DNA of 32,192 nucleotides from Caulobacteraceae bacterium (GTDB lineage: Bacteria > Pseudomonadota > Alphaproteobacteria > Caulobacterales > Caulobacteraceae). Position 1 is the first letter of the stretch. The number at the start of each line of letters is the position of its first letter. The stretch spans positions 1-32,192 of the forward strand of contig CANJMO010000027.1 in the NCBI GenBank assembly GCA_947475845.1, read 5' to 3'. Positions 12,259 through 31,158 of this stretch are shown here, piece by piece. The position numbers and the translations under genes were made by a program. Under the pieces are notes generated by a model. It had not been told where the DNA came from and ran no database searches. It saw only the letters and a list, made by a program, of their open reading frames with translations.

Positions 12259-13431
12259 TCAGGCGCCGTCGGAGAGGGTGCGCATCACGGCGTAGAGCTT
12301 GGACTTGGCCTCGAAGCCGACGCCGGGGACATCGGGCAGGCCGACGTAGCCGTCCTGCACCGCTATGCCGTCGGCGAAGCCGCCGAAGGGCTGGAAGACG
12401 TCGGGGTAGGACTCGTTGCCGCCCAGATGCAGGCCGGCGGCGATGTTGAGCGACATCTGGTGGCCGCCGTGGGGTACGACGCGGCGCGAGGACCAGCCGT
12501 TCTCGGCGAGCACCTCGAGCGTGCGCATGTATTCGACGAGCCCGTAGGACAGGGCGCAGTCGAATTGCAGGAAATCGCGGTCCGGGCGCATGCCGCCGTG
12601 GCGCAGCAGGTTGCGCGCGTCCTGGTGGGAGAACAGGTTCTCGCCGGTGGCCATGGCTCCGGGATAGTGCTCGGCAAGCGCCGCCTGGAGCGCGTAGTCG
12701 AGGGGGTCGCCGGCTTCCTCGTACCAATAGAGGCCGTAGGGCTTCAGCGCCTTGGCGTAGGCGATGGCGGTGTCCAGATCGAAGCGGCCGTTGGCGTCGA
12801 CGGCGAGGCGGCTCCCCTCCCCCACTACTTCCAGAACGGCGTCGATGCGGCGCAGGTCTTCGTCGAGGGAAGCGCCGCCGATCTTCATCTTCACGACGCG
12901 ATAGCCGCGCTCGACGTAGGAGCGCATCTCGGCCTGGAGTTGAGCGTAGTCCTTGCCCGGATAGTAGTAACCGCCCGCCGCGTAGACCCAGACCTTGTCG
13001 TCGTGCACGCCGCCCCGGTAGCGGTCGGCCAGCAGGCGGTAGAGCGGCTGGCCGGCGATCTTGGCCACCGCGTCCCAGACGGCCATGTCGATGGTCCCGA
13101 CCGCGACCGAGCGCTCGCCGTGCCCGCCCGGCTTCTCGTTGGTCATCATCGTGCGCCAGATGGCGAACGGGTCGAGGTTGGCGCCCGCCTCGTCGATCAG
13201 GGTGTCGGGCTTGGCCTCCAGTAGCCGCGGCAAGAAGCGCTCGCGCATCAGGGCGCCCTGGCCGTAGCGGCCGTTGGAGTTGAAGCCGTAGCCGACCACG
13301 GGTTTGCCGTCCCGCACCTGATCGGTGATCACGGCGACCACCGAGCAGGTCATCTTGGAGAAGTCGATATAGGCGTTGGCGATGGGCGAGGCGATCGAGA
13401 CGGTCTTCTCGCGGATGTCGAGGATACGCAC
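12259..13431 (-). CDS. tarD: D-tartrate dehydratase (enolase superfamily)
   Basis: Mandelate-racemase-type enzyme predicted to dehydrate D-tartrate to oxaloacetate with Mg2+. The start is GTG at 13429-13431, with GGAGA 8 bases upstream, giving 390 residues. The open frame extends further upstream but crosses a terminator. The N-terminal capping domain contains VGYGFNSNGRYGQGA and KPGGHGERSVAVGTIDMAVW. In the barrel, K181 and K183 form the KMK motif. The metal ligands are D212 (VDANGRF), E238 (WYEEAGDP) and E264 (ATGEN). The general acid/base is H321 (VVPHGGHQMS). These are each one residue below the numbers I recall for Bradyrhizobium TarD (K184, D213, E239, E265, H322), and long stretches agree. 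The adjacent dctA fits a C4-acid pathway. Substrate is by family assignment. Confidence 0.85.
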   Translation of the reverse strand: MRILDIREKTVSIASPIANAYIDFSKMTCSVVAVITDQVRDGKPVVGYGFNSNGRYGQGALMRERFLPRLLEAKPDTLIDEAGANLDPFAIWRTMMTNEKPGGHGERSVAVGTIDMAVWDAVAKIAGQPLYRLLADRYRGGVHDDKVWVYAAGGYYYPGKDYAQLQAEMRSYVERGYRVVKMKIGGASLDEDLRRIDAVLEVVGEGSRLAVDANGRFDLDTAIAYAKALKPYGLYWYEEAGDPLDYALQAALAEHYPGAMATGENLFSHQDARNLLRHGGMRPDRDFLQFDCALSYGLVEYMRTLEVLAENGWSSRRVVPHGGHQMSLNIAAGLHLGGNESYPDVFQPFGGFADGIAVQDGYVGLPDVPGVGFEAKSKLYAVMRTLSDGA

Positions 13432-13577: not shown

Positions 13578-14165
13578 CTAGGGCGCCGGCGGGGCGACCA
13601 AGGCTCCGTCCTGACCGGCGACGTTGAGGGCGGCGCGGATCTTGCCGGTGGCCTTCAGCTCCTCGAGCAGGGTGCGGACATAGGTTGAGGCGACCGGGTG
13701 ACCCTTGGGCAGGGCGACGGCCTGATCGATGCGGGTGTAGCGGTCGGGGATGACGCGGAACTGCGGCTGGCCGCGCGAGGCGTTGACCAGGGCCTGGCGG
13801 ACGCCGGCGACCGCGTCGATCGAGCCGGTCTTGAACAGGGCGATGGCCTCGGGCGATGAGCCGACCCGCTCCAGGCCCGCGTGCTTGAGATTGCGGGTCA
13901 GGTAGAGGTCGTAGGCGGCGCCCGGGCCGCGGGTGGCGAAGCACAGGCCCGGCGTCCCGGTCAGCTTGCCGACGGCCTCGGCCATGTTGGAGGCGGCAGC
14001 CTCGTGACGGCAGACGACGAAGCGGAACTGATCGCCGACCCCGTACATGGCGTCGAGCACGCCGAGGTAGCTTTCGCCCGGGACCCCGAAGCCGAGGTGG
14101 GCGCCGTGGACCAGCAGCTGGTCGATGAGGATCTGAGCGCCATTGCGCCGGCGGACGGCTTTCAT
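13578..14165 (-). CDS. Chimeric ORF: ThDP-enzyme N-terminus joined to C-terminal half of a solute-binding protein
   Basis: The 195-residue product is two unrelated families in one frame. Residues 1 to about 82 are the start of a thiamine-diphosphate enzyme of the acetolactate synthase type. They include LLVHGAHLGFGVPGESYLGV, then CRHEAAASNMAEAVGKLTG with the cofactor-activating glutamate at E55, then CFATRGPGA. From about residue 83 the sequence becomes the second lobe of an amino-acid-type ABC solute-binding protein: AYDLYLTRNLKHA, SIDAVAGVRQAL, and RIDQAVALPKGHPVASTYVR. The join falls at a GGCGCC stretch near 13910-13925. No signal peptide is present, and neither half is complete. Its ATG overlaps the MFS stop (ATGA). 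I infer a deletion that fused two former neighbours. It is unlikely to be an active enzyme or binding protein. Confidence 0.8.
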   Translation of the reverse strand: MKAVRRRNGAQILIDQLLVHGAHLGFGVPGESYLGVLDAMYGVGDQFRFVVCRHEAAASNMAEAVGKLTGTPGLCFATRGPGAAYDLYLTRNLKHAGLERVGSSPEAIALFKTGSIDAVAGVRQALVNASRGQPQFRVIPDRYTRIDQAVALPKGHPVASTYVRTLLEELKATGKIRAALNVAGQDGALVAPPAP

Positions 14166-15420
14166 TGGGCATTTCCCGCAAGATCGATGGACGATAGCGC
14201 GCGGTCGCGCGTCTCCGGAAGGAAGAAGCTGCACAGCAGGACCACCGAGTAGGCGGCCACGGCGGCGACGGCGATGGCGCTGGTCAGGCCGACATCGCCC
14301 GAGAGCACCCCGACCAGGGCCGGGAAGAAGGCGCCGATGCCGCGCCCGGCGTTGTAACAAATCCCCTGCCCGGTCGCGCGCAACTGGGTCGGGAACAGCT
14401 CGGACAGCAGCGGGCCGAGGCCGGCGTTCATCGCCGACTGGCAGAAGCCGAGCGGGAAGCCGAGCAGCAGGATCGCCAGGGAACTGACGCCCAGCATCAG
14501 GTAGCCGAACACGCTGAGCGCGCCGAGCACGGCGAACAGCTTGAGGGCGTGGCGGCGGCCGAGGCCGTCGGAGACGAAGCCGCCGAGGATGTAGCCGGTG
14601 AACGAGCCGGCGATGTTGACCAGCAGGAACAGGCCGGTGTTGCTGTAGGACAGGTGGCGCTCGGTCTGCAGATAGGTCGGCAGCCAGTTGAGCACCGTGT
14701 AGTTGCCGCCGAGCACGCCGAGACAGATCAGCCAGGCGGTGAGGGTGCGCAGGCCGAGCTTGCCGGTGAAGATGGCCAGAGCTTGGGACGCAGTTCCTTG
14801 GCCGCCTTGGCCGTGAGGTAGAGCTCCGAATCCTTGACCGCGCCGCGCACGTAGAACACCAGGCCGGTGGGCAGGATGCCGAGGAAGAACAGGGTGCGCC
14901 AGGCCATGTCCGGGCCGAGGAAATGGAACAGGATGGTGAACAGGATGGTGAACAGGATGGCGGCGGCGCCGTAGCCCACGGCCCAGCCGCTCGCCACAGC
15001 CGAGACTGCCTTGCCGCGATGCTTGGGCGCGACGATCTCGGCCATCAGCACGGCGCCCGCGGCCCACTCGCCGCCGAAGCCGATGCCCTGCAGCGTGCGC
15101 GCCGCGAGCAGCTGTTCGTAGTTCTGAGTCAGGCCGCTGAGGAAGGTGAAGGCGGAGAACCACAGGATGCTGATCTGCAGCACCTTCACCCGGCCGATGC
15201 GGTCGGCCAGGTGGCCGGCGATGGCGCCGCCAACCGAGGACGACAACAGAGCGACGGTGGCGGCGAACCCGGCCTGGGTCTTGCTCAGATGCCAGGCGGC
15301 CATGATGGCGGGCAGGACCAGGGCGTAGATATGGACGTCCATGGCGTCGAGGGCCCAGCCGCCGAAGCAGGCCCAAAAGCCCTTACGCTGACTGCTGTCG
15401 AGCTCTTTATACCAGGACAT
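14162..15420 (-). pseudogene. MFS transporter, interrupted by a frameshift
   Basis: Metabolite:proton symporter of the major facilitator superfamily, close to the aromatic-acid/sialate porter branch. The first frame starts at 15420 (MSWYKELDSSQRKGFWACFG). It contains the loop 2-3 signature as GHLADRIGRVKVLQI and the block GFGGEWAAGAVLMAEI. It stays good to about AKAAKELRP, then turns to nonsense and stops at 14728. The second frame resumes at LAIFTGKLGLRTLTAWLICL and runs through GGFVSDGLGRRHALKL to the stop at 14162. The break lies near 14778-14790. Adding one G to the AAGCT there restores AKELRPKALAIFTG. The combined length, about 420 residues, is normal for the family. It may be a real null allele or one sequencing error. 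It diverges from a GntR regulator. Confidence 0.85.
14927..14960. repeat. 12-bp tandem repeat inside the MFS gene
   Basis: AACAGGATGGTG occurs twice in tandem (14927-14938 and 14939-14950), followed by a partial third copy. It encodes FTIL repeats in a membrane helix (ILFTILFTILFHF). Twelve bases keep the frame, so copy-number change would lengthen the helix by four residues without breaking the gene. Confidence 0.85.
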
Positions 15421-16254: not shown

Positions 16255-16971
16255 TTACCGGAAGCCGGTCGGGTTTTTCGACCCTTCGACGGTCGGGGCC
16301 CGGTTGTTGTCGCATACGTATTCGGTCATCCGATACGGCGTCTTCCTGTACTCGACCGTGAACGACCACGGCGCGGTGTAGAGGCTGTCGTCGGTGATGG
16401 TCAGCTTGTTGGTGGCGCGCTTGCCGCCGTCCAGCAGGGTCAGACGCTCGGTGACGTGGGTCTTGGGCGATTGCGGCAGGCCGCCCCGGTCGATCTGGAT
16501 CTTATCGTTCATCCCCTCGGACTCGATGACCAGGGTCTGGCCTTCCCAGCGGCCGACCGAGTAGCCCATGTAGGTGGGATCGGGATCCACCGGCAGCTTT
16601 TCGTCCATGTAGACGATGCGCTGGTTGTGATTCACCTCGAACATCATGCCGATCACGGTCGGCTGCTGGAAGATCTGCATCGGGTAGGGCGTGTACATGA
16701 TGCGCGGCATGCCGTGGGGCAGGCAGGAGGTGGCCGAATCGGGCATCTGCTGGCCGGCCTTGATGGCGGCGACGCGCTTGTCGTAGAGCGCCCTGGCCTC
16801 GGGCTTCATCGGCGGCAGGTTGCCGTCGTCCATTTTCACGAACTCATGGAATTTCATATCCCAGAAGCCGCTGAAGTCCGGGTGCGCCTGGGCGGCGGCG
16901 CCCGAGGCGGCCGCGACGGCGATTAAACCGGCCAGGGCCGCGCCGATGCGCTTAAGCTTACGATGGTTCAT
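16255..16971 (-). CDS. Secreted protein of unknown function with a GRWEG motif
   Basis: 238 residues with a Sec signal peptide (MNHRKLKRIGAALAGLIAVA, cleavage after AAAQA). ATG at 16969-16971 follows GGGAAG. The mature part begins HPDFSGFWD and contains CLPHGMPRIMYTPYPMQI, a VNHNQRIVYMD strand, YMGYSVGRWEGQTLVIESEG and LTITDDSLYTAPWSFTVEY. I recognise these blocks as a common secreted family in sphingomonads and Caulobacterales, often near TonB receptors and DUF6152 genes. No biochemical role is known to me. A lipocalin-like beta fold is plausible from the strand pattern (inference). A DUF6152 gene occurs at the end of this window. It diverges from the amidohydrolase. Confidence 0.7.
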   Translation of the reverse strand: MNHRKLKRIGAALAGLIAVAAASGAAAQAHPDFSGFWDMKFHEFVKMDDGNLPPMKPEARALYDKRVAAIKAGQQMPDSATSCLPHGMPRIMYTPYPMQIFQQPTVIGMMFEVNHNQRIVYMDEKLPVDPDPTYMGYSVGRWEGQTLVIESEGMNDKIQIDRGGLPQSPKTHVTERLTLLDGGKRATNKLTITDDSLYTAPWSFTVEYRKTPYRMTEYVCDNNRAPTVEGSKNPTGFR

Positions 16972-17083
16972 ACTCTTCCCTCCTGGGCTCATTGTTTTTC
17001 GTACTCGCATGAGCCACTTGAAATGCGTTGTGAGCGTAATACAATTCCGTACACACAAATAACAACCACTCGGGGATGGCGCC

Positions 17084-18607
17084 GTGCGTTTTTTGACTGA
17101 CGAGGACAAGGCCCGGCTGACGCCCGCCGAGAATCTGCCGCACTTCACGCCCATTCCGACACAGAACATATCGAGCGACGAATATTTCCCCACCCCGCAG
17201 ACGGCCAAGCAGCGCGAGCTGGAGGCCCGCATGTTGGCGATCGGCGACGCCGAGGCCAAGCGCCATGGTGTTTCACGGCGGAAATTCTTCCAGAGCGCGG
17301 CCGGGATGGCCGCCGCCTATGTCGCCCTGAACGAGACCTTCGAGCAGATGTTCGAGGCGAGCCACGCCGAGGCCCAGACCCCGGAAATGGCCAACGCCCG
17401 GGCGCAGGGGCTCAAGGGGCAGTTCATCATGGACATGCACACCCACTTCCTGCGCGACGACACGCGCCTGGTGAGCTTCGCGGCGATGCGCAACGCGGTC
17501 GGCAAGGCCGGCTGGAACAGCGAGCTGGCGGCCAAGGAACAGACCCTCGAGGACCTGAAGTACGACAACTACGTCAAGGAGATGTTCCTCGATTCCGACA
17601 GCAAGCTGGTGGCGATCTCGTCGGCCCCGTCGGACATCCTGGAAGACTGGTTCCTGACCAACCAGCAGATGGCCGACGCACGGGCCAAGGTGAACCAGCG
17701 GTTCGGCTCCAAGCGGCTGTTCTCGCACGCCATCTTCACCCCCGGGCAGCCGGGGTGGCTGGATCAGGTGGACGCCAGCCTGGCGCTGAAGCCCGATGCG
17801 ATGAAGGGCTATACGATCGGCGACAACACGCACAAGGACATCAGCCGCTATCCGTGGCGGATGGACGACGAGAAGACGACCTACAAGGCGTTCGAGAAGT
17901 TCGCCAAGGCCGGGGTGAAGAACGTCTGCGTGCACAAGGGCCTGTTCCCCCTGGCGATGGACAAGCTTTATCCGAACCTGCGCCCCTATGTGGACGTCAG
18001 CGACATTGGCAAGGCGGCCAAGGACTGGCCGCAGTTCAATTTCCACGTCTTCCACTCCGGCTTCCGCCACGTCGGCGGCGACCCGGCGCTGGGCCGCGAG
18101 GAGTGGGAGAAGACCCACCGCCTGTCGTGGGTGTCGGACCTGGCCGAGATTCCGGAGAAGTTCGGCGTCAACAACGTCTATTGCGACACCGGCCAGATCT
18201 TCGCCATGACCGTGGTGTCGGAGCCGCGCGTCGTCGCGGCGATGCTGGGCATCCTGGTCAAGGGCCTGGGCGCCGACCACGTCTGCTGGGGCACCGACGC
18301 GGTTTGGACCGGCTCGCCGCAATGGCAGATCGAGGGCCTGCGCCGCCTGGAAATCCCCGAGGACATGCAAAAGCAGTTCGGCTTCAAGCCGCTCGGCGCC
18401 GCCGACGGCCCGGTCAAGACGGCCATCTTCGGCGGCAACAATGCGCGCCTGTACGGCATCAACCAGAAGCGCGCCGAAGCCGAGATGAGGGGCGACCGGC
18501 TGACCGCGCTGAAGGCCGAGTACGAGCGTCAGGGGCCTGAGCCGAGCAACCTGCGCTACGGCTACGCCGCTCCCAGCCAACCGATCGACTACTCCGTCTT
18601 TGCCTGA
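17084..18607 (+). CDS. Tat-exported amidohydrolase (amidohydrolase-2 / ACMSD-like family)
   Basis: Metal-dependent hydrolase or decarboxylase of the amidohydrolase-2 family, predicted periplasmic. The GTG start at 17084 gives 507 residues. The metal site is visible: H119-x-H121 in MDMHTHF, H284 in CVHKG, H324 in FHSGF and D405 in WGTDAVW. Tat motif SRRKFFQSAAGMAAAYVAL has its arginines at 65 and 66, so 63 residues precede it. An internal ATG at 17231 with a GGAGG site would place the Tat motif at residue 15. I kept the long start because the front segment (PAENLPHFTPIPTQN) looks coding and I recall it in relatives. The family includes decarboxylases of aromatic or semialdehyde acids; the substrate is unknown. 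Its stop overlaps the HiPIP start (TGATG). Confidence 0.85.
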   Translation: MRFLTDEDKARLTPAENLPHFTPIPTQNISSDEYFPTPQTAKQRELEARMLAIGDAEAKRHGVSRRKFFQSAAGMAAAYVALNETFEQMFEASHAEAQTPEMANARAQGLKGQFIMDMHTHFLRDDTRLVSFAAMRNAVGKAGWNSELAAKEQTLEDLKYDNYVKEMFLDSDSKLVAISSAPSDILEDWFLTNQQMADARAKVNQRFGSKRLFSHAIFTPGQPGWLDQVDASLALKPDAMKGYTIGDNTHKDISRYPWRMDDEKTTYKAFEKFAKAGVKNVCVHKGLFPLAMDKLYPNLRPYVDVSDIGKAAKDWPQFNFHVFHSGFRHVGGDPALGREEWEKTHRLSWVSDLAEIPEKFGVNNVYCDTGQIFAMTVVSEPRVVAAMLGILVKGLGADHVCWGTDAVWTGSPQWQIEGLRRLEIPEDMQKQFGFKPLGAADGPVKTAIFGGNNARLYGINQKRAEAEMRGDRLTALKAEYERQGPEPSNLRYGYAAPSQPIDYSVFA

Positions 18608-18862
18608 TGGCCAGCCGCCGGAGCGTGATCGCGGGTTTTCTGCTGGCGGCGGGCGCCTGCGCGCGCGCAGGCGGCCGAACCCGCGCCGGCTCGGGTGCCG
18701 CTGATCAAGGTTTTGCAGGCGGAGAGTCACTATCAGGACAAGCCGAAGGACATCCAATCCTGCGCCATCTGCAGCGTGTTCGTGAAACCGGACCTGTGCA
18801 AAGTCGTCGAAGGTAAGGTCAGTCCCGATGGTTGGTGTACGCTGTTCGATCTCATGGATTGA
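18607..18862 (+). pseudogene. High-potential iron-sulfur protein (HiPIP), frameshifted
   Basis: HiPIPs are small periplasmic one-electron carriers with one 4Fe-4S cluster. The start codon overlaps the amidohydrolase stop. Frame one gives a Tat-type leader, MASRRSVIAGFLLAAGACAR, then drifts. Frame two, from about 18662 to TGA at 18860-18862, gives AQAAEPAPARVPLIKVLQAE, YQDKPKDIQSCAICSVF, KPDLCKVVEGKVSPDGWC. All four cluster cysteines are present in the C-x2-C...C...GWC pattern. The frames meet in a GCGCGCGC run at 18659-18668. Adding one GC dinucleotide restores a continuous protein with an ARAQA cleavage site. Loss by slippage in this run is the simple explanation; a read error is the other. 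The electron partner is probably the adjacent amidohydrolase or another exported enzyme (inference). Confidence 0.8.
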
Positions 18863-18875
18863 ACGGAGATTCACA

Positions 18876-19580
18876 ATGAAACGCTTTCTCGCCCCGACCC
18901 GGCTCCTGCGCCTGCTCCTCGCCCTGGGGCCGATGGCGCTGCTGCTCGCCGCCTCCCCTGCCCTGGCGCAACCGGCCTATCGCCTGGTGGTCCGCTATGC
19001 GGAAGCCCCGCCCACCGGCGTTCAGCGCCTGGCCAAGACCCTGCAGACCTATGCCGCCGAGACGCGCAAGGACGAGCCGTGGACCCGGGTGGAAGTGCTG
19101 AGCGAGCTCGGCCGGCCCAACCGGATGGTGGTGATCGAGCGCTGGGAAAACATGGACGGGGCCCAGGAAGCCCGCCTCAACGCCCGCGTCGACGGCCTGG
19201 TCGCCGGCCAGACCGTGGCGCCCGTGGACCATCGCCGCAACGACGCCCTGACCCTGCCGATCTTCGAGCGCCCGCCGGCGAGCGCTTTCCACGTGGTGAT
19301 GCACCTGGATGTGGTGCCCGACGGCAGCGCGACGGCGGCGCGCGCCCTGTCGGAACAGCGCGCGGCGGTGCTGGCCGCGCCCGGCGCGATCAGCTTCGAG
19401 GCCTCGACCCAGTCCAACCGGCCGAACCACTTCGCCGTCTACGAAGTGTGGAGGAGCCGCGCGGCCTACGAGGCCTATATCGCCACGGCTCCCGCTCAGG
19501 ACCTGCGCAAGCAGCTGACCCCGATCAAGGGCGCGCCGTTCGACGACCGTTTCTACACCGCCGCGGCCACGCTCAAGTGA
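18876..19580 (+). CDS. Secreted protein with two ABM-like domains
   Basis: 234 residues. ATG at 18876 follows ACGGAG. A Sec signal peptide runs through LRLLLALGPMALLLAASPALA. The mature part holds two copies of a ferredoxin-like fold of the antibiotic-biosynthesis-monooxygenase (dimeric alpha-beta barrel) type. Copy one contains YRLVVRYAEAPPTG and RPNRMVVIERWENMDGAQEA. Copy two contains AFHVVMHLDVVPDGS and RPNHFAVYEVWRSRAAYEAY. Each copy keeps the NxxxxxExWxxxxAxxA pattern that closes the small barrel. ABM proteins act as cofactor-free oxygenases or haem-degrading enzymes, or bind hydrophobic ligands. Export is unusual for the family. It sits 13 bases after the HiPIP frame and likely shares its transcript. 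Confidence 0.75.
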   Translation: MKRFLAPTRLLRLLLALGPMALLLAASPALAQPAYRLVVRYAEAPPTGVQRLAKTLQTYAAETRKDEPWTRVEVLSELGRPNRMVVIERWENMDGAQEARLNARVDGLVAGQTVAPVDHRRNDALTLPIFERPPASAFHVVMHLDVVPDGSATAARALSEQRAAVLAAPGAISFEASTQSNRPNHFAVYEVWRSRAAYEAYIATAPAQDLRKQLTPIKGAPFDDRFYTAAATLK

Positions 19581-19622
19581 GGCCCTAGCTCATGCCCCCC
19601 GGAACCCAAGGACAGTAACCCC

Positions 19623-20117
19623 ATGCCGTTCAAGGACGTCAGATCCATACCCTTGCATGTGGGACCGCTGAAGAACTCGGCGGCGATGTCCGGGGCGGTC
19701 ATCGGACTCAGCTTCCAGCTGACCACGACCGCCACCGCGACCTACGGCAAGATCGGTCTGGGGTCGCTGGAAGCGCGCATGCTGCTGGAGCTGTCGCACT
19801 ATGACGCGGTCAAGGCGGCGCAACTGTCCAACCTGCTGAAGTCCGACCCGTCGGCGGTGAGCCGGACGGCCAAGACCCTGCGCGACCGGGGGCTGGTGAT
19901 GCACACCGGGGCCAAGCAGCTGCTGTGCCTGACGGAGGCGGGGCGCGACATCGCCGAGCAGGTGCGGATGATCAGCCAGGAACGCGAGCGGCGCCTGTTC
20001 GCGGGCATCTCGGGTGACGAGGCCAAGGTCCTGTCCACGCAACTGGACCGGCTGCTGGGCAATTCGACGGACCTGGCCGACCTGGCCCATCGCCTGAGGC
20101 GGTTCCTGGCCGAGTAG
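19623..20117 (+). CDS. MarR-family transcriptional regulator
   Basis: 164-residue winged-helix regulator. The HTH is AAQLSNLLKSDPSAVSRTAK, followed by the wing TLRDRGLVMHTGAKQLLCLT and EAGRDIAEQVRMI. The N-terminal helix (SGAVIGLSFQLTTTATATYG) and the long C-terminal helix make the dimer interface. AAGGACAG lies before the ATG. Such proteins are usually repressors released by aromatic acids. Its place directly after the exported enzymes suggests it senses the pathway substrate (inference). Confidence 0.88.
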   Translation: MPFKDVRSIPLHVGPLKNSAAMSGAVIGLSFQLTTTATATYGKIGLGSLEARMLLELSHYDAVKAAQLSNLLKSDPSAVSRTAKTLRDRGLVMHTGAKQLLCLTEAGRDIAEQVRMISQERERRLFAGISGDEAKVLSTQLDRLLGNSTDLADLAHRLRRFLAE

Positions 20118-20179
20118 GCGAAGCCGTACATCCCACAGTTGATTCCTCCAGATGTTGGTCGCTTGACTGTATTTTTTAC

Positions 20180-20202
20180 AGCCGCAAAGTACAGCGGCTT
20201 TA
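20180..20202 (+). terminator. Weak hairpin in the MarR-fecI gap
   Basis: AGCCGC and GCGGCT form a 6-base-pair stem with an 8-base loop, followed by only TTA. Just before it, CTGTA and TACAG flank TTTTT (20167-20181), a second small inverted repeat. TTGACT at 20163-20168 could be a -35 box for fecI, but no good -10 follows. The remaining bases of 20118-20336 show nothing else apart from the fecI ribosome site AAAGGA. Confidence 0.3.
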
Positions 20203-20336
20203 GTCCGAATAACGCTCACTCAAGTGGGCGCTCCGACCGCCGTTCAGTCTGATCCTGGCCCCTTAGCGCGGCGATATTTGCGTTCTGCCTACGGAAAGCG
20301 GGCCTCCATTCGTCTTCACCGCAAAGGACCGCAACG

Positions 20337-20918
20337 ATGCCTATGGATGCAGACAGCAAGCGGCGCACGGCCTGGGTCGCAGGAAATCTCCTGCCTATCG
20401 AGGGCGACGTCCGCGCCTGGCTCTTGCGACGCCTGAACCGGCCGGACGAAGCGGACGATCTGATCCAGGAAGCCTACTGCCGCGCGTGGACGGTGACCGA
20501 GCTCGGCGCCATCCTCAATCCCAAGGCCTATTTCTTCAGGACCGTGCGCAACATCCTTATCGATCAGGTGAGGCGGGCGGCGGTGGTTCAGATCGGCCTG
20601 ATGGCGGACATAGAATCGGCCGGAGGACAGGAGGATCTTGCGTCCCCCGAACGTATTCTGTCCGCCCGCCAGGATCTCAACCGTGTGCAGACACTGATCG
20701 ACGCCCTGCCCGATCGATGCCGCCGGATCGTGATCATGCGCAAAATTCGCGGCATGTCGCAGCGCGAGATCGCCCATGAGTGTGGTGTGACGGAAAGCGT
20801 TGTAGAGAACGACCTTCGGCGTGGCTTAAGCCTTGTCCTCAAAGCTTTTGAAATCGGCGAGCCTGCAGAGCGCTCGCGAACTGCCGACAGAAGGGCCAGT
20901 AAGCGTGCACGCAGTTGA
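20337..20918 (+). CDS. fecI: FecI-type ECF sigma factor
   Basis: 193-residue sigma factor of the iron-starvation/TonB-signalling class. Region 2 includes DEADDLIQEAYCRAW and NPKAYFFRTVRNILIDQVRR. Region 4 includes LPDRCRRIVIMRKIRGMSQR, EIAHECGVTESVVENDLRRG. A second in-frame ATG two codons in is also possible. AAAGGA precedes the start. The fecR gene overlaps its 3' end, and a transducer-type TonB receptor follows. This is the full sigma/anti-sigma/receptor signalling layout, in which substrate at the receptor releases the sigma factor. Confidence 0.9.
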   Translation: MPMDADSKRRTAWVAGNLLPIEGDVRAWLLRRLNRPDEADDLIQEAYCRAWTVTELGAILNPKAYFFRTVRNILIDQVRRAAVVQIGLMADIESAGGQEDLASPERILSARQDLNRVQTLIDALPDRCRRIVIMRKIRGMSQREIAHECGVTESVVENDLRRGLSLVLKAFEIGEPAERSRTADRRASKRARS

Positions 20919-21857
20919 CATCGCCGGCCGTGCGGAAGGCTGGATCATACGAGTCGACAAGGGAGAGCTCTCCGACGAGGAGCGCGCCGAGCTGGACGCT
21001 TGGCTGGACGCCGACCCGCGCCACCGCGGCACCTATGTCCGCGCCGCCGCCGCCTGGAACCTGCTGGACCGGGCGCGTGCGCTCAGCCCTCAACAACCCG
21101 AGACCCGCCGCGTCGATCGCCGATGGGCCATTGCCGTAGGCGTGGCGGCGAGTGTCTGCGTCGCCGCCGGTCTCACCTTCATGCTGGCGCCGCACTGGAC
21201 GGACTACACCACCCGCCATGGCGAGATTCGCCGCGTGCGCCTGGACGACGGCTCGATCGCGGTGCTGGATTCCGACGTCTTGATGAAGACCGCGATGAGC
21301 CGGGGCCGCCGCCGCATTCGCCTGGTTCGAGGCGTCGCCTGGTTCGAGGTCGTGCATGACCGATCGCGGCCTTTCGTCGTCCAGGCGGGCGAGTCGCAGG
21401 TGCGGGCGGTGGGCACGGCGTTCTCCGTACGGCGTACGGTCGCCGGCGCCGAAGTGATGGTCACCGAAGGCGTGGTCGAGGCGCGGCCGGCGCCGACGGC
21501 GCCTCCCCTCAGCGTAGCCGCGGGCGGGGGCGCGATCATCGAGAATGGGAGGGTCGGCCTCAAACGGATATCGGCTGAAGAGATCGATCGGGAGCTCGCC
21601 TGGCGCGACGGCCGCATCGCGCTCAACGGCGTGTCGTTGCGCGAGGCCGTCGCTCGCTTCAACCAATAAACGTCCGCAAGCTGATCCTGGCGGATCCGGA
21701 TCTGGGCGGGCTCAACGTGGTGGGCTGGTTCAAGCTCAACTCGCCGGAAGCCTTCGCCCACGCCGTCGCGGTTGGATTTCCCGCTGACGTCACGATCCAG
21801 AACGACAGCATCGTCATCGCTCGAAAATCCGCGAAAAAAACTACGGGTGAAACCTAA
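20905..21857 (+). pseudogene. fecR: FecR-type anti-sigma/sigma regulator, frameshifted near the C-terminus
   Basis: Inner-membrane protein that passes the receptor's signal to FecI. A GTG start at 20905, with AAGGG upstream, puts the family's N-terminus at the right place (GWIIRVDKGELSDEERAELD, DPRHRGTYVRAAAAW); a longer start at 20833 is possible. One membrane helix follows, WAIAVGVAASVCVAAGLTFM. The FecR core is intact: GEIRRVRLDDGSIAVLDSD, GVAWFEVVHD, VRAVGTAFSVRR. The frame stops at 21669 after AVARFNQ. The DUF4974-like end continues in another frame as NVRKLILADPDLGGLNVVGW and FPADVTIQNDSIVIA to TAA at 21855-21857. Restoring one C (TAAAC to TACAAC near 21668) makes FNQYNVRKL and joins the parts. 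The lost part is the domain that contacts the receptor. Confidence 0.85.
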
Positions 21858-21925
21858 GGAACCGGCTCGCCGGCTCGTCTTCCAAAAGGACGCCCAAGAA
21901 CAAGAGGCGCCTCGAGGAGGGATAG

Positions 21926-24895
21926 ATGCGAGCAATCCACGCGTTGTTTGCGGCCGCCAGTACGCTGGCGATTGCCGCCGCCAGTCCGGCGATGGCCCAG
22001 GAAGTGGCATTCCACCTGGCCGCGCAGCCGGCCACAGCCGCCATTCAGGAATTTGGCCGCCAAGCCGGGGTGCAGATATTCGCGCGCGGCGACGCCCTGG
22101 CCCGGGTGACGACCAACTCCGTCCAAGGCCGCTATGATGTGCACAAAGCGTTGTCGATGCTGCTCGCGGGCACATCGCTGGAACTGGTTTCCGAAGACGG
22201 CAAGGTGCTGGTAGTCGATCGCCCCGCCCCTCAATCCCTGCGCGTGCCGATACGCACCCAGAGCACCTCGGCCCCCGCCGCTCCGCCGCCGGCCCCCGCG
22301 CCGCAGCAGGCCGTCGCCTCGGTCGGGATCGAGGAAGTGGTCGTCACGGCGACACGCCAGACCTCGACGGTCAACAAAGTCGCCCTGTCGGTCACAGCGG
22401 TGACCGCCGCGACGCTGGAAAAGCAAGGGTCCAAGGATCTGGCCGAACTGGCCAATACGGTGCCGTCGGTGGTGTTCCGCCGCTCGGGCAACGAAGGCAA
22501 CCCGAGCATCACCATCCGCGGCCTGGGCTCGGCGCTGGGCGCCCCGACCACCGCCGTCTATCTGGACGACACCCCGATCCAGAAGCGCGACTTCAGCGGC
22601 CTGAACACCGGCAACGGGACCCCCTACCCGCAACTATTCGACCTGGAGCGGGTCGAATTCCTGCGCGGCCCGCAGGGCACCCTGTTCGGCGGCTCGGCCG
22701 AAGGCGGCGCGGTGCGCTTCATCACCCCGACCCCGAGCCTGAGCCGGTACTCGGGCATGGCCAAGGGCGAATGGTCGACCATGCCGGGCGAAGGCTCGCC
22801 CAGCTATGAAGCCGGCTTCGCCATCGGCGGACCGATCGTGCAGGACAAACTGGGCTTCCGCGCCAGCCTCTGGCAGAGGCATGCCGGCGGCTACATCGAC
22901 CACGTGTCGATGTATGACGGCCACACGATCTCCAAGGACACCAACTCGGCCAACGAAAAGATGATCCGCCTGGCGGTGACGTGGGCGCCGACAGCCAACT
23001 TGAAGATCACCCCGGCGATCTACTGGTCGCAGGACCACTCGGACGACAGCGACAATTTCTGGCTGGACGTGCCCAGCTACACCACCAACTCGGGCTTCTT
23101 CCTTAACAAGGGCACGATCAACGGCGTCGCCTACGATTTCCCGGATCAGTTCTATCAGGGCAAGACCTACCCGGCGCTCAAGTACGGGCCGTATAAGAGC
23201 GGCGTGGCGGTCTACAACGACGAAGCCGGCAATGCGCGGACCTTCCAGAGCAACCGCATCTCGACCATCCTCCTGCCGACCCTGACGCTGGATTACGACC
23301 TGCCGTTCATGTCGGTGAAGTCGGTCACTTCGTATCTGAAGGACGTCAACAAGGGCTTCACCGCCGGCAGCGGCGGCCCGACGCGCACCGCCCTGTTCCC
23401 GATCACCACCAACGCCGGCTTCGTCACCGTGGCCAGCCACACCGGCCAGAACGTCGGCACGCCGGTGACCGGCGGCATCGGCGTGCCGGGCATGATCCTG
23501 CCCGGCTTCCCGACAGCGTGGAACGAGAACCGCTACAACAACCAGCGCAAGTTCTTCGTCGAGGAACTGCGCTTCTCGTCGGCGCCGGGCGAAGGCCGGC
23601 TGAGCTGGGTCGGCGGCATCTACTATTCGAACACCGACGCGGCCAGCGACGTCGGCCAGCGCGGCACCGGGGCCGCCGACAACTTCAACCTGCGCGGCAT
23701 CAACCAGGCCTGGCTGCTGGGCATGACGGAGATCTCGCCCGGGAACAACTCGGTGCGATCGGTGCGCGACAAGGAAAGCGAAATCGCCGGCTTCGGCGAA
23801 GCCAACTACAATCTGACCTCCAAGCTGAAGCTGACGGCCGGGGTGCGGGTGTCTAAATTCAACATCAGCTACAGCCAGGCCAGCGGCAGCGCGATCCAGG
23901 GGGCGCCTCCAGGATACGTCGGCTTCGCCGCCGGCGGCACGGTCACCAACGTGCAGTGCGGCCTGAACCCGGTCAGCTGTAACTCGGCGACCTTCCACCC
24001 CTTCCCCAACCAGCCCGGCGACGACAGCTACACCCGCTTCTCGGGCAGCCAGAAGTCGACCCCGGTGACGCCGAAGGTCGGGGTGTCGTACCAGCTGAAC
24101 AGCCGCAGCCTGCTGTATCTGACGGCCTCGCAGGGCTACCGCACCGGCGGTCTGAACCAGCCCGCGGCGATCCCCAACTGCTCGCCCGACCTGGCCGCGA
24201 TCGGCCTAACATCCACGCCCGCCACCTACAATTCCGACAGCGTGTGGAGCTATGAAGGCGGCGCCAAGCTCGGCCTGCTGGACGGGCGGATGCAGGTCAA
24301 CACCAGCCTGTTCCACATCGACTGGAAGGATCCGCAGCTGAGCATCAAACTGCGCTGCGGCCAGACCTATATCCAGAACGCGGGCAGCGCGGTCAGCCAG
24401 GGCGCCGACGTCCAGGCCCAGGGCCGCTTCGGTCCGTTCCTGATCGGCGGGACGGTGTCCTATACCGACTCGCACTACACCAAGACCTACGCCCTGCCGG
24501 GCCCCTCCGGCACCACGGTGCTGATCGTGTCCAAGGGCGACAGCCTGGGCGCTCCGCCCTGGCAGTACAGCCTGAACGGCGAATACGACTTCAACGTGAT
24601 GGGCAAGTACGCGGCTTACCTGCGGGCTGACTACGCCTTCTCCAGCCAGTACCAACCGGGCGTCGGCCCCGGCGCGGTCGGCTACGATCCGGTGCTCGCG
24701 CGAGGGGCGGCGACGCACCTGGCCAACATGCGCGCCGGTGTCACGCGCGATACCTGGGAGGCGGCGGTGTTCGTCAAGAACCTGACCCAATCGCAGGACC
24801 TGCTGACGCTCAACCACGCGGCCAGCTCGCCGCTGATCACCTCGTCCACCTTCCGCCCGCGTGAAGTCGGCGTGTCGCTGGCCTACCGCTTCTGA
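21926..24895 (+). CDS. TonB-dependent transducer/receptor with STN signalling domain
   Basis: 989-residue outer-membrane receptor. GGAGGG precedes the ATG. The signal peptide ends SPAMAQ. The short secretin/TonB N-terminal (STN) signalling domain spans about residues 26-97: LAAQPATAAIQEFGRQAGVQ, ALSMLLAGTSLELV. A proline-rich linker and the TonB box region EEVVVTATRQTSTVNK (from E136) follow. The plug contains ITIRGLG and the usual FDLERVEFLRGPQGTLFGG. The barrel ends RPREVGVSLAYRF with the terminal aromatic residue. Sequence does not resemble classic siderophore receptors closely enough to name a ligand. The neighbours (exported amidohydrolase, aldolase) suggest an organic acid or aromatic compound (inference). 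With fecIR it forms a signalling trio. Confidence 0.92.
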   Translation: MRAIHALFAAASTLAIAAASPAMAQEVAFHLAAQPATAAIQEFGRQAGVQIFARGDALARVTTNSVQGRYDVHKALSMLLAGTSLELVSEDGKVLVVDRPAPQSLRVPIRTQSTSAPAAPPPAPAPQQAVASVGIEEVVVTATRQTSTVNKVALSVTAVTAATLEKQGSKDLAELANTVPSVVFRRSGNEGNPSITIRGLGSALGAPTTAVYLDDTPIQKRDFSGLNTGNGTPYPQLFDLERVEFLRGPQGTLFGGSAEGGAVRFITPTPSLSRYSGMAKGEWSTMPGEGSPSYEAGFAIGGPIVQDKLGFRASLWQRHAGGYIDHVSMYDGHTISKDTNSANEKMIRLAVTWAPTANLKITPAIYWSQDHSDDSDNFWLDVPSYTTNSGFFLNKGTINGVAYDFPDQFYQGKTYPALKYGPYKSGVAVYNDEAGNARTFQSNRISTILLPTLTLDYDLPFMSVKSVTSYLKDVNKGFTAGSGGPTRTALFPITTNAGFVTVASHTGQNVGTPVTGGIGVPGMILPGFPTAWNENRYNNQRKFFVEELRFSSAPGEGRLSWVGGIYYSNTDAASDVGQRGTGAADNFNLRGINQAWLLGMTEISPGNNSVRSVRDKESEIAGFGEANYNLTSKLKLTAGVRVSKFNISYSQASGSAIQGAPPGYVGFAAGGTVTNVQCGLNPVSCNSATFHPFPNQPGDDSYTRFSGSQKSTPVTPKVGVSYQLNSRSLLYLTASQGYRTGGLNQPAAIPNCSPDLAAIGLTSTPATYNSDSVWSYEGGAKLGLLDGRMQVNTSLFHIDWKDPQLSIKLRCGQTYIQNAGSAVSQGADVQAQGRFGPFLIGGTVSYTDSHYTKTYALPGPSGTTVLIVSKGDSLGAPPWQYSLNGEYDFNVMGKYAAYLRADYAFSSQYQPGVGPGAVGYDPVLARGAATHLANMRAGVTRDTWEAAVFVKNLTQSQDLLTLNHAASSPLITSSTFRPREVGVSLAYRF

Positions 24896-24918
24896 TCCGC
24901 GAAAACAGGAAACCCAAG

Positions 24919-25743
24919 ATGAGAAACGCAATCCCGCTGCTGGCCACTGTTTTCGGCGCAGCCGCCCTGGCGGCCGCTTCGGTCGCTTCGGTCGCTTCGG
25001 CCCAGACTCTGCCCTATCAGTCCACCGACCCGAAGATGAAGGCGGCAGTCGACGACCTGTATGCGGCCAACCGCATCCTGGCGTTCGAGGGTGTGATCAC
25101 CGGCGCCGGGCACGTCAGCGTGCGCTCGCCGACCAATCCGGCGCACATGCTGATCTCGCGCTCGCTGGCCCCGCCGCAGGTGGTGCCGGCGGACATCCAG
25201 GAACTGGACATCGCCACCTGCCAGAACGTCAACCCCAAGGGGCCCCTGCTGTATCAGGAGCGTCACATCCACTGCAGCATCTACAAGGCCCGCCCGGACA
25301 TCAACGCTGTGGTCCACAGCCACACGCCCAACATCATCGTGTTCAGCGTGATCAAGACGCCGCTGCGCGCCATGATGAATGGCGGCCGCATCCTCGGTAA
25401 CGGGGCGCCGATCCACGACATGGCCGACGTGAAGACCAAGACCGCCAACCTGATCGCCAGTATCGACGCCGGCGACTCCCTCGCCGCCGCCATGGGCAAG
25501 GGCAATGTGGTTCTGTTGCGCGGCCACGGCTCGGCCGTGGGGGCCGCCGACCTGCATACGGCGGTCGGCAACGTGATGGGCATCGAGGAGAACGCCACGC
25601 TACAGCTGCGGGCCATGGCCACCGGCAGCCCGATCACCTGGTCCAAACCCACCGACTTCGTCCAGACCGAGGAGATCACCCGGGTGCTGGCCGGCGAGGA
25701 CCGCAACTGGAACGCCGAGAAGTTTCGCGCCGGCGTGAAATAG
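24919..25743 (+). CDS. Exported class II aldolase/adducin-family protein
   Basis: 274 residues, 23 bases after the receptor stop, so probably co-transcribed. Class II aldolases are normally cytosolic zinc enzymes that cleave or epimerise sugar phosphates or decarboxylate hydroxy acids. This one has a Sec signal (MRNAIPLLATVFGAAALAAA, cleavage after VASA). The zinc ligands are in place: H133-x-H135 in VVHSHTP and H203 in LLRGHGSAVGA. GAGHVSVRSP is the usual glycine-rich substrate loop. A 9-base unit encoding ASV is repeated about three times in the signal peptide. The product may be a periplasmic lyase in the same pathway as the Tat amidohydrolase. The specific reaction is unknown. Confidence 0.85.
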   Translation: MRNAIPLLATVFGAAALAAASVASVASAQTLPYQSTDPKMKAAVDDLYAANRILAFEGVITGAGHVSVRSPTNPAHMLISRSLAPPQVVPADIQELDIATCQNVNPKGPLLYQERHIHCSIYKARPDINAVVHSHTPNIIVFSVIKTPLRAMMNGGRILGNGAPIHDMADVKTKTANLIASIDAGDSLAAAMGKGNVVLLRGHGSAVGAADLHTAVGNVMGIEENATLQLRAMATGSPITWSKPTDFVQTEEITRVLAGEDRNWNAEKFRAGVK

Positions 25744-30065: not shown

Positions 30066-30647
30066 ATGAATCCGCTCGAGCCATTCCGAAAGAAGGCGGA
30101 GTCGATCGACCCCCCGGAAACGGCGGCGGTGTCGCCGCTGGCTCCCCTGACTCCCTGGCGTATCGACAATCTGTTCCGCGACCATAACGACGCCCTGGTC
30201 CGGTTCCTGCGGGCGCGGCTGAACAGCGACGCCGACGCCAAGGAAGCCGCCCAGGAAGCCTATGTGCGCCTGCTGCAACTCGATCAGCCGGATCAGCCGT
30301 CTTTCCTGAAGGCCTACCTGTTCAAGGTCGCCTCGAACGTCGCCGCCGACATGATCCGTCAAAGGCGCACGCGTAAGCACTCCGACGAAATCAACGAGAA
30401 CGATCACGCCGCGCCGGCGCACCAAGAACGGGCGCTGTCGGCCAAGCAGCAACTGGCCGCCGTGCAGAGGGCTTTGGACGAACTGCCGCCGAAGTGTCGC
30501 GAAGCGTTCGTGCTCAGCCGTCATGAAGGGTTCTCCACGGTCGAGATCGCGGCGCGGCTGAACGTCTCCGATCGCATGATCCGCAATTACCTGGCCCGCG
30601 CCCTCGAACATCTGCAGGCAGCGCTCCGGGTCGAGGCGCCGAAATGA
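30066..30647 (+). CDS. FecI-type ECF sigma factor (second copy)
   Basis: 193 residues, with AAGGGAA before the ATG. After a proline-rich front of about 30 residues, region 2 has DNLFRDHNDALVRFLRARLN, EAAQEAYVRLLQ and FLKAYLFKVASNVAADMIRQ. Region 4 has ALDELPPKCREAFVLSRHEG and FSTVEIAARLNVSDRMIRNY. It is only distantly similar to the fecI at 20.3 kb, so the two are separate lineages and not a recent duplication. Its stop overlaps the start of a truncated fecR (ATGA). The receptor it was built to serve may be the deleted one whose tail follows. Confidence 0.9.
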   Translation: MNPLEPFRKKAESIDPPETAAVSPLAPLTPWRIDNLFRDHNDALVRFLRARLNSDADAKEAAQEAYVRLLQLDQPDQPSFLKAYLFKVASNVAADMIRQRRTRKHSDEINENDHAAPAHQERALSAKQQLAAVQRALDELPPKCREAFVLSRHEGFSTVEIAARLNVSDRMIRNYLARALEHLQAALRVEAPK

Positions 30648-30990
30648 AGTCCGTGCAAAGCAAATCCCCCGCTTCCACCGCGATCGACTGGATGGCCTTC
30701 GACTGGCTTATCCGTCTGCGCTTCGACGAGGTGAGCAGCGAGACCCTGTCCGAATGGACCCGCTGGCTGGAAGCGCCGGGCGCCCGTGAAGCCTATGATC
30801 GCGCACTGCAGGCCTGGTCTCTGTGCGGCCTGGCCTGGGCCCCGCGGCCCACCGAGGAAGACCTGCGCGAGGACGCCTACGATGGCGCGGTTCCGGTCGC
30901 CGCCTGGCGCGAACGGCCGCAGCAAGTCGCCCCGCCGCTGATGTTCAGCATCCCCGCCCAGCGACCCAAACGCCGGCCGGCCAACGGCGG
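30644..30990 (+). pseudogene. 5' fragment of a fecR gene
   Basis: The first ~115 codons of a FecR-type regulator. The DUF4880-like N-terminal domain is clear: AFDWLIRLRFDEVSSETLSE, WTRWLEAPGAREAYDRALQA, WSLCGLAWAP. Before the membrane helix and the FecR core, the sequence switches near 30990 to another family in another frame. The fecR frame itself then runs on to a stop at 31036 without sense. The anti-sigma N-terminal domain alone could in principle still bind the sigma factor, so the fragment may not be silent. Confidence 0.8.
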
Positions 30991-31158
30991 GATGAAGTGG
31001 GCTACTTCGACAAGCTGGAGGCGGCCATCTACGTGAAGAACCTGACCGACTCCAACGAGTGGCTGGACAAGAATCTGGTGACCAGTTCGCAGGTCTACTA
31101 TTACGGCAACTCGTTCCAGCCGCGCACGATCGGCGCCCAGTTCAACTACCGATTCTAG
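30991..31158 (+). pseudogene. 3' tail of a deleted TonB-dependent receptor
   Basis: In its own frame these bases encode 55 residues: EVGYFDKLEAAIYVKNLTDS, then NEWLDKNLVTSS and finally SFQPRTIGAQFNYRF. This is the last few barrel strands and the terminal aromatic residue of a receptor. It is closely similar to the end of the receptor at 27.2-29.9 kb (VKNLTDSNEW and SFQPRTIG are shared). No start codon or export signal remains. The receptor body and the end of fecR were evidently removed in one deletion, with the junction near 30985-30991. Confidence 0.88.

Follow-up and report, generated by a model that had tools for sequence, protein, structure and literature searches.

We analysed a stretch of 32,192 nucleotides from a Caulobacteraceae bacterium (GenBank assembly GCA_947475845.1, contig CANJMO010000027.1, positions 1 to 32,192 of the forward strand), which we refer to as the window. 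The window is contig C27 of a host genome (G000) of 2.65 Mb in 101 contigs. The locus of interest encodes an amidohydrolase, a TonB-dependent receptor and, directly downstream of the receptor, a class II aldolase-fold protein with an export signal; a HiPIP-like gene, a double ABM protein, a MarR-family regulator, a FecI/FecR pair and a secreted protein of a family that we call SEC complete the set (Table 1). An earlier note, made from the sequence without database searches, had read these genes as a cluster of exported enzymes with its own receptor and electron carrier. The amidohydrolase, ABM protein, MarR regulator, sigma factor, receptor, aldolase and secreted protein of its gene list were confirmed, but the HiPIP and FecR frames are broken. 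Taken together, the genes form a mosaic of several small conserved units and not one conserved pathway, and their solid core is an exported member of a decarboxylase-like family encoded behind a TonB receptor.

Table 1. Genes of the locus and their positions in the window
Feature	Position	Strand	Basis and remarks
SEC family, secreted protein	16255..16971	-	One of 54 paralogues in the host genome; N-terminal signal; predicted fatty-acid-binding protein (FABP)/calycin-like barrel
Amidohydrolase, Amidohydro_2 protein with ACMSD/5-carboxyvanillate/2,6-dihydroxybenzoate decarboxylase fold	17084..18607	+	Pfam, predicted model
HiPIP-like gene, frame broken, overlaps amidohydrolase stop	18607..18862	+	Pfam, frame reading
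Double ABM protein with Sec-type signal	18876..19580	+	Pfam; signal judged by eye
MarR-family regulator	19623..20117	+	Pfam/NCBIfam
Extracytoplasmic function (ECF) sigma factor, FecI type	20337..20918	+	Pfam/NCBIfam, over cut-off
FecR-type anti-sigma factor, over cut-off, C-terminal part frameshifted away	20833..21669	+	Remaining frame runs on to about 21858
TonB-dependent receptor: plug, barrel, sub-threshold N-terminal STN-like domain	21926..24895	+	Pfam/NCBIfam
Class II aldolase-fold protein, Sec-type signal, HMPDdc/PhtC decarboxylase-like group	24919..25743	+	Pfam, NCBIfam, alignment

The aldolase-fold protein matched PF00596 (Aldolase_II) with 96.4 bits (cut-off 22.2). Its closest solved relative, far ahead of the 29 other sequences listed, was 2z7b (Mlr6791; E 3.5e-29), which we take to be a 3-hydroxy-2-methylpyridine-4,5-dicarboxylate decarboxylase; the best NCBIfam model was that of the 3,4-dihydroxyphthalate decarboxylase PhtC (NF053537, E 1.6e-19). 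The class II aldolase fold is common to 2z7b, PhtC and the window protein, and the ER.IH and H.H motifs of 2z7b align with it. Residues E114, H133, H135 and H203, presumably the catalytic glutamate and the metal-binding histidines by analogy with the fold family, are kept in all 15 aligned sequences. In contrast to 2z7b and PhtC, export signals are present on the window protein and on 7 of the 14 relatives aligned with it (five from genome G025, one from G017 and one from G347). To our knowledge, aromatic-acid decarboxylation is cytosolic in the pathways described.

Export signals were judged by eye throughout, aided by position, divergence and models, because a crude hydrophobicity score did not separate all cases: the G355 protein, which starts at the enzyme core, scored 1.92 and two signal-bearing sequences 1.95–1.96. 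The first 29 residues of the window aldolase are 24–38% identical in five relatives, compared with 38–91% for the mature part, and the signals of the G017 protein and one G025 copy contain twin arginines, so that the signals of the group are Sec-like or Tat-like. We consider this sequence evidence for an export signal convincing. The remaining 7 of the 15 sequences start at the enzyme core, the start having been chosen by us for G501 and read inside a longer open frame for G424 and G526. In a small tree with weak support at several inner nodes, the sequences with a signal fall into more than one group, so multiple gains or losses of export are possible. All 129 plasmid records that matched the aldolase were below 60% identity, and in the 20 listed the match began at residue 29 or later. 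The ABM protein also bears a plain export signal. Thus, the proposal of the earlier note that members of two usually cytosolic families carry Sec signals stood up, with the aldolase signal kept or Tat-like in relatives. The parts of the literature reached by our search contained no report of an exported class II aldolase or of the SEC family.

The amidohydrolase scored 31.2 bits against Pfam Amidohydro_2 (cut-off 26.4). Across 23 sequences, four positions of an HxH, His, His, Asp metal site (H121, H284, H324 and D405) are invariant and H119 is kept in at least 90%; we presume these residues to be metal ligands, as in the family. Neither a single-sequence nor a profile search of Protein Data Bank (PDB) sequences found a solved relative. 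In the predicted model, residues 112–460 match ACMSD-type hydrolases and decarboxylases, and LigW heads the Foldseek list. In VIA, the top row was 3irs, which is uncharacterised (Z 23.9), and LigW (4l6d) reached Z 19.6, with 259 aligned residues and a root-mean-square deviation (rmsd) of 4.3, close to 2,6-dihydroxybenzoate decarboxylase (Z 19.5). The protein thus resembles LigW, gamma-resorcylate (2,6-dihydroxybenzoate) decarboxylase and ACMSD in its TIM barrel and metal positions, but it differs from them in a roughly 110-residue extra N-terminal region with a twin-arginine motif and is just 11–19% identical to them in the rows listed. One and the same ring-cleavage semialdehyde is reported to be decarboxylated by DhbB, a class II aldolase from strain MT1, and by OpaD from PTH10, which belongs to the metallo-dependent hydrolase superfamily (PMC6362003). 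Both enzyme folds therefore include aromatic or ring-cleavage decarboxylases; for neither enzyme does the fold alone give the reaction.

The amidohydrolase had also been called a Tat substrate. The expected elements are present (SRRKFF at residues 64–69 and A-x-A at 95–97), but the motif lies inside a conserved and confidently folded region. Arginines 65 and 66 are invariant in the 23 sequences, down to 32% identity, and the 62-residue extension that precedes SRRKFF has invariant positions itself. Conservation over residues 63–100 was 0.59–0.64, compared with 0.53–0.69 for the catalytic part, and pairwise identity over residues 63–98 equalled or exceeded that of the rest in five of eight comparisons. 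The predicted local distance difference test (pLDDT) score was 90–96 across residues 41–110, a value that is not independent of conservation. The twin-arginine stretch thus comes after 62 residues that are themselves conserved and, unlike the aldolase signals, diverges no faster than the enzyme core; it is also confidently folded in the model. Tat export of the amidohydrolase is therefore doubtful; on sequence and model together, a structural N-terminal region fits better than a conserved Tat signal.

We searched related genomes for both enzymes, and the counts that follow include the host genome. The amidohydrolase was found in 7 of 149 family genomes (E 1e-30), and the aldolase in 5 of 149 family and 7 of 385 class genomes (E 1e-40). 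They occur together in two of the 149 family genomes, the host and G025. Contig C111 of G025 keeps the order and strand of amidohydrolase, receptor and aldolase (80%, 62% and 85%, respectively), and the gap between amidohydrolase and aldolase is 6.4 kb there and 6.3 kb in the window. In both species the aldolase gene lies directly behind the receptor gene; in G025 a second aldolase and SEC genes come after it. The intervening genes are HiPIP, ABM, MarR, FecI and FecR in the window; in G025 they are a sigma-54 response regulator and a histidine kinase on the other strand, and no STN domain was detected in the G025 receptor. The three genes look like a core with changeable control genes, as judged from two species of one genus.

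Conservation of the whole cluster was rejected. When 15 window proteins were compared by tblastn with 65 loci (62 of them among the matches listed), the aldolase or the receptor lay near the amidohydrolase only in the G025 contig. The earlier note had named conserved co-occurrence of amidohydrolase and aldolase with HiPIP, ABM and TonB genes as support for its reading; in the loci and genomes covered, amidohydrolase, receptor and aldolase recur together in G025 alone, at a locus with no HiPIP or ABM gene. In the contig collection searched, we located 56 amidohydrolase loci, mostly beta-proteobacterial by their titles. The commonest neighbours at many beta-proteobacterial loci, recognised by eye from their first residues, were a Bug-type receptor, a cyclase-like protein and housekeeping genes, which is another setting. 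At three loci (L067:3-5116, L092 8521-13076 and L150 6808-12170), DUF1549/DUF1553 (PSCyt2/PSD1) and DUF1501 genes, of kinds known from Planctomycetes, adjoin the amidohydrolase, a relative of the aldolase and a further Amidohydro_2 gene; for the large genes at L092 and L150, and for DUF1501 at L150, the assignment was made by eye.

Three genes in or beside the locus have broken reading frames. The earlier note had listed a Tat-type HiPIP, which did not survive: the Tat-like start (18607 onwards) and the cysteine part (ending at 18862) sit in different frames, and no single open frame encodes the whole protein. The Pfam HIPIP score was 18.0 bits (cut-off 22), and the four-cysteine pattern CxxC..C..GWC is present within one frame. 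A frameshift at about 21.67 kb removes the C-terminal part of FecR. Upstream, a major facilitator superfamily (MFS) gene at 14162-15420 is likewise split by a frameshift; its best match is to aromatic acid symporters, as a fragment only. These breaks reflect either sequencing indels or decay. Short receptor frames occur elsewhere too, in two genes on host contig C35 (292 and 294 residues) and one in G025 (264 residues). An intact HiPIP gene lies beside an amidohydrolase paralogue of the host genome (G000:C15:5101-6621, 75% to the window copy), and HiPIP also adjoins a second G025 amidohydrolase copy and a Bradyrhizobium copy; among the loci searched, the pair was found only in the window, L002, L010 and L053. 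We also weighed, and abandoned, the idea that HiPIP passes electrons to the amidohydrolase in the periplasm: an enzyme of this fold does not require an electron carrier, and no intact HiPIP frame is present. The description of the locus as a group of exported enzymes supplied with an electron carrier of their own, to which export of the amidohydrolase is central, is not supported.

Two further probable junctions were seen in the window. At 13581-14252 lies a gene remnant of which N-terminal residues 32–113 match thiamine-pyrophosphate enzymes and the remainder resembles, by eye, the end of a solute-binding protein; it is probably a fusion left by a deletion. At 30644-31158, a FecR-like start and a TonB receptor tail in a different frame (read by eye) apparently mark a deletion junction.

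Genes related to those of the locus adjoin aromatic pathways elsewhere. On contig C68 of G025, three exported aldolases, a receptor and a pair of SEC genes stand together with a phenol 2-monooxygenase (1024 bits, cut-off 560), a PdxA-like protein, an anion symporter and a Rieske protein that has a LigXa_C domain. The ABM protein is present in 2 of 149 family genomes, the host included; its matches among PDB sequences were weak ones to ABM proteins and two to barrels designed de novo. Its homologue in G012, which also bears an export signal and is split across two contig ends, lies with an SEC gene on contig C111 of that genome, next to genes of the 4-hydroxyphenylacetate pathway: HpaH and HpaG exceed their model cut-offs, whereas HpaI and HpaR narrowly miss theirs. 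An HpaB-like monooxygenase, below cut-off, was found in the neighbourhood of the G347 aldolase, and the signal-less G009 aldolase lies near an FAD monooxygenase and an Amidohydro_2 protein. This reading covered the aldolase genomes other than G355, G424, G501, G523 and G526.

The SEC gene belongs to a large family. At E 0.001, the host genome gave 54 matches, G025 gave 76 and the less complete G038 gave 30, so that one copy within 9.5 kb is unremarkable. Single-protein searches found SEC in 41 of 149 family genomes (E 1e-6), leaving 108 without a match at that threshold, and in 9 of 398 phylum genomes (E 1e-8), the host included, with up to 18 and 7 candidates scored per genome, respectively. 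A profile search of the class found it in at least 4 of 289 genomes, an undercount because the best nine candidates per genome were scored. None of 46 aligned members (44 from the host, two from G025) matched a model of Pfam or NCBIfam, the two catalogues searched, at E 0.001. A single-sequence search of PDB sequences found no solved relative, and the lone marginal match of a profile search, to EF-G (E 0.008), was taken as chance. Eight plasmid records matched SEC, as unnamed or 'hypothetical protein' entries, and two of the five regions opened were annotated.

We modelled the window member from 46 sequences (pLDDT 88). The low confidence over the first 30 residues (54–65, compared with 88–98 for residues 31–220) is as expected of a signal; divergence of the signal within the family (0.30–0.37 versus 0.40–0.61) was a weaker control than in the aldolase. 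Foldseek matched the model to cellular retinol-, retinoic-acid- and fatty-acid-binding proteins (probability 1.00, E 3e-5), with a loose superposition (rmsd mostly 6–7, TM by query about 0.35), and VIA matched it to 5h9a (Z 9.7, 124 aligned, rmsd 3.4). Because models without a clear match reach Z 7–8 in VIA, barely less, the FABP-like barrel is a hint at a fold and not at a function. The model shares with FABP and cellular retinol-binding protein (CRBP), intracellular lipid-binding proteins, a predicted order of strand, helix, helix and eight strands. Unlike them, SEC proteins are secreted, bacterial and longer, have no sequence match to them in the PDB profile search, and carry a conserved WEGDTLVVDT-like motif and two conserved cysteines.

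SEC genes lie near receptor genes more often than expected. In the host genome, 52 SEC genes (51 placed by profile and one by search coordinates in the fetched regions) formed 40 groups, 10 of them multi-gene, and in several pairs stop and start overlap by 1–4 bases. The host has 28 receptor plug domains, and 13 of the 40 groups lay within 5 kb of one, compared with 3.4 expected; none of 2000 random placements, for which contig extents were partly interpolated, reached 13. The corresponding figures were 9 versus 2.5 at 3 kb and 16 versus 4.8 at 8 kb. For G025, using 72 of its 76 SEC places, 13 of 51 groups lay within 5 kb of a receptor, compared with at most 6.3 expected (binomial p 0.008; p 0.004 at 3 kb and 0.02 at 8 kb). 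Most groups were farther away than 5 kb (27 of 40 in the host, 38 of 51 in G025). In G060, SEC genes flank a receptor-like gene. DUF6152 genes adjoin or lie near SEC genes at L147, L149, L158, L159, L167, L169 and L173, and beside SEC on a Novosphingobium humi plasmid (three calls checked by Pfam, the others look-alikes by their first residues); a literature search gave no mention of DUF6152, and a search for Caulobacteraceae together with humics found nothing. One could imagine SEC as a lineage-expanded set of secreted FABP-like barrels, often encoded by overlapping gene pairs, that would serve TonB receptors as carriers in the periplasm and pass hydrophobic aromatic ligands on to exported decarboxylases; we consider this tentative proposal rather doubtful.

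We favour a reading in which the locus, itself a patchwork, serves to take up and break down phenolic compounds that carry carboxyl groups, or related aromatics, with decarboxylation in the periplasm, and give it a probability of about one in two. Aromatic-acid uptake and periplasmic decarboxylation are favoured because related genes elsewhere adjoin phenol or 4-hydroxyphenylacetate genes. The TonB receptor would import the aromatic compound, or its iron-bound form, into the periplasm, where the exported aldolase-fold enzyme encoded directly downstream would most likely remove a carboxyl group, as its relatives do in the cytosol. Binding of the ligand would probably fall to the SEC barrels, and its oxidation may be the task of the ABM protein. 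The amidohydrolase, with its decarboxylase fold and HiPIP coupling, would belong to the same locus and may act in the cytosol. FecI and FecR, with the STN domain of the receptor, and MarR would form a control cassette of the host species.

Several observations weigh against this interpretation. The aldolase falls below the PhtC cut-off (70.2 bits, cut-off 200). HiPIP and FecR are broken in the window, and HiPIP, ABM and FecI/FecR do not occur at the matching G025 locus. None of the 14 other window proteins was found in the 19–20 kb fetched around the amidohydrolases of G043, G058, G091, G142 and G143. Only one of the 56 amidohydrolase loci, L011, which is the G025 contig, showed the aldolase or the TonB receptor nearby; the flanks covered extended at most 10 kb and were often truncated where a contig ended, and receptors unlike that of the window could escape notice there. 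The 20 kb fetched around the exported aldolases of G017 and G347 contained no relative of the window's receptors, and no aromatic-pathway gene was recognised around that of G017. Lastly, the DctA, amidase and sugar-acid dehydratase-like genes near the cluster give no aromatic pointer.

Alternatively, the genes may form no functional unit at all. Independent genes and conserved pairs (amidohydrolase–HiPIP, receptor–aldolase, FecI–FecR and SEC copies) could be adjacent by chance in a genome as rich in receptors and SEC genes as this one, and HiPIP, ABM and FecI/FecR are absent beside the amidohydrolase or aldolase in most relatives. However, G025 keeps amidohydrolase, receptor and aldolase on one strand and at the same spacing despite different intervening genes, and the two enzymes co-occur in those two family genomes; we regard chance assembly as unlikely, though a serious contender. 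The control genes could point in another direction. As in FecI–FecR–FecA signalling, sigma factor, FecR and a receptor with an STN-like domain follow one another in the window, and the receptor matches the TonB-siderophore model at E 5e-27, which would suit import of a ferric chelate whose chelator is modified in the periplasm by the exported enzymes. The genes of the transducer described in the earlier note stand in this order, but the FecR C terminus is out of frame and the STN domain is sub-threshold (24.7 bits, cut-off 28.4). The TonB-siderophore score of 94.7 also falls short of its cut-off of 223.5, the matching G025 locus lacks the cassette and the STN domain yet keeps the aldolase, and some related aldolases neighbour aromatic-pathway genes. 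Iron or siderophore uptake is, in our view, improbable.

The class II aldolase fold itself would allow the exported enzyme to work in the periplasm on sugars or sugar acids, as an aldolase or epimerase, and the dehydratase-like gene at 12262-13431 could be seen in that light; its best model, L-talarate/galactarate dehydratase, was reached with 123.9 bits (cut-off 500). Against this, fuculose and ribulose phosphate aldolases are more distant from the sequence than the 2z7b/PhtC group is, and phosphorylated sugars are not expected in the periplasm. We consider this very improbable.

If uptake coupled to periplasmic decarboxylation is correct, the breakdown of aromatic acids would be able to begin in the periplasm. 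The broadest lead for further work is the SEC family, which has no Pfam or NCBIfam model although the 2.65 Mb host genome contains 54 copies. If the carrier role suggested for its members were true, they would represent a lipocalin-style uptake module in Gram-negative bacteria.

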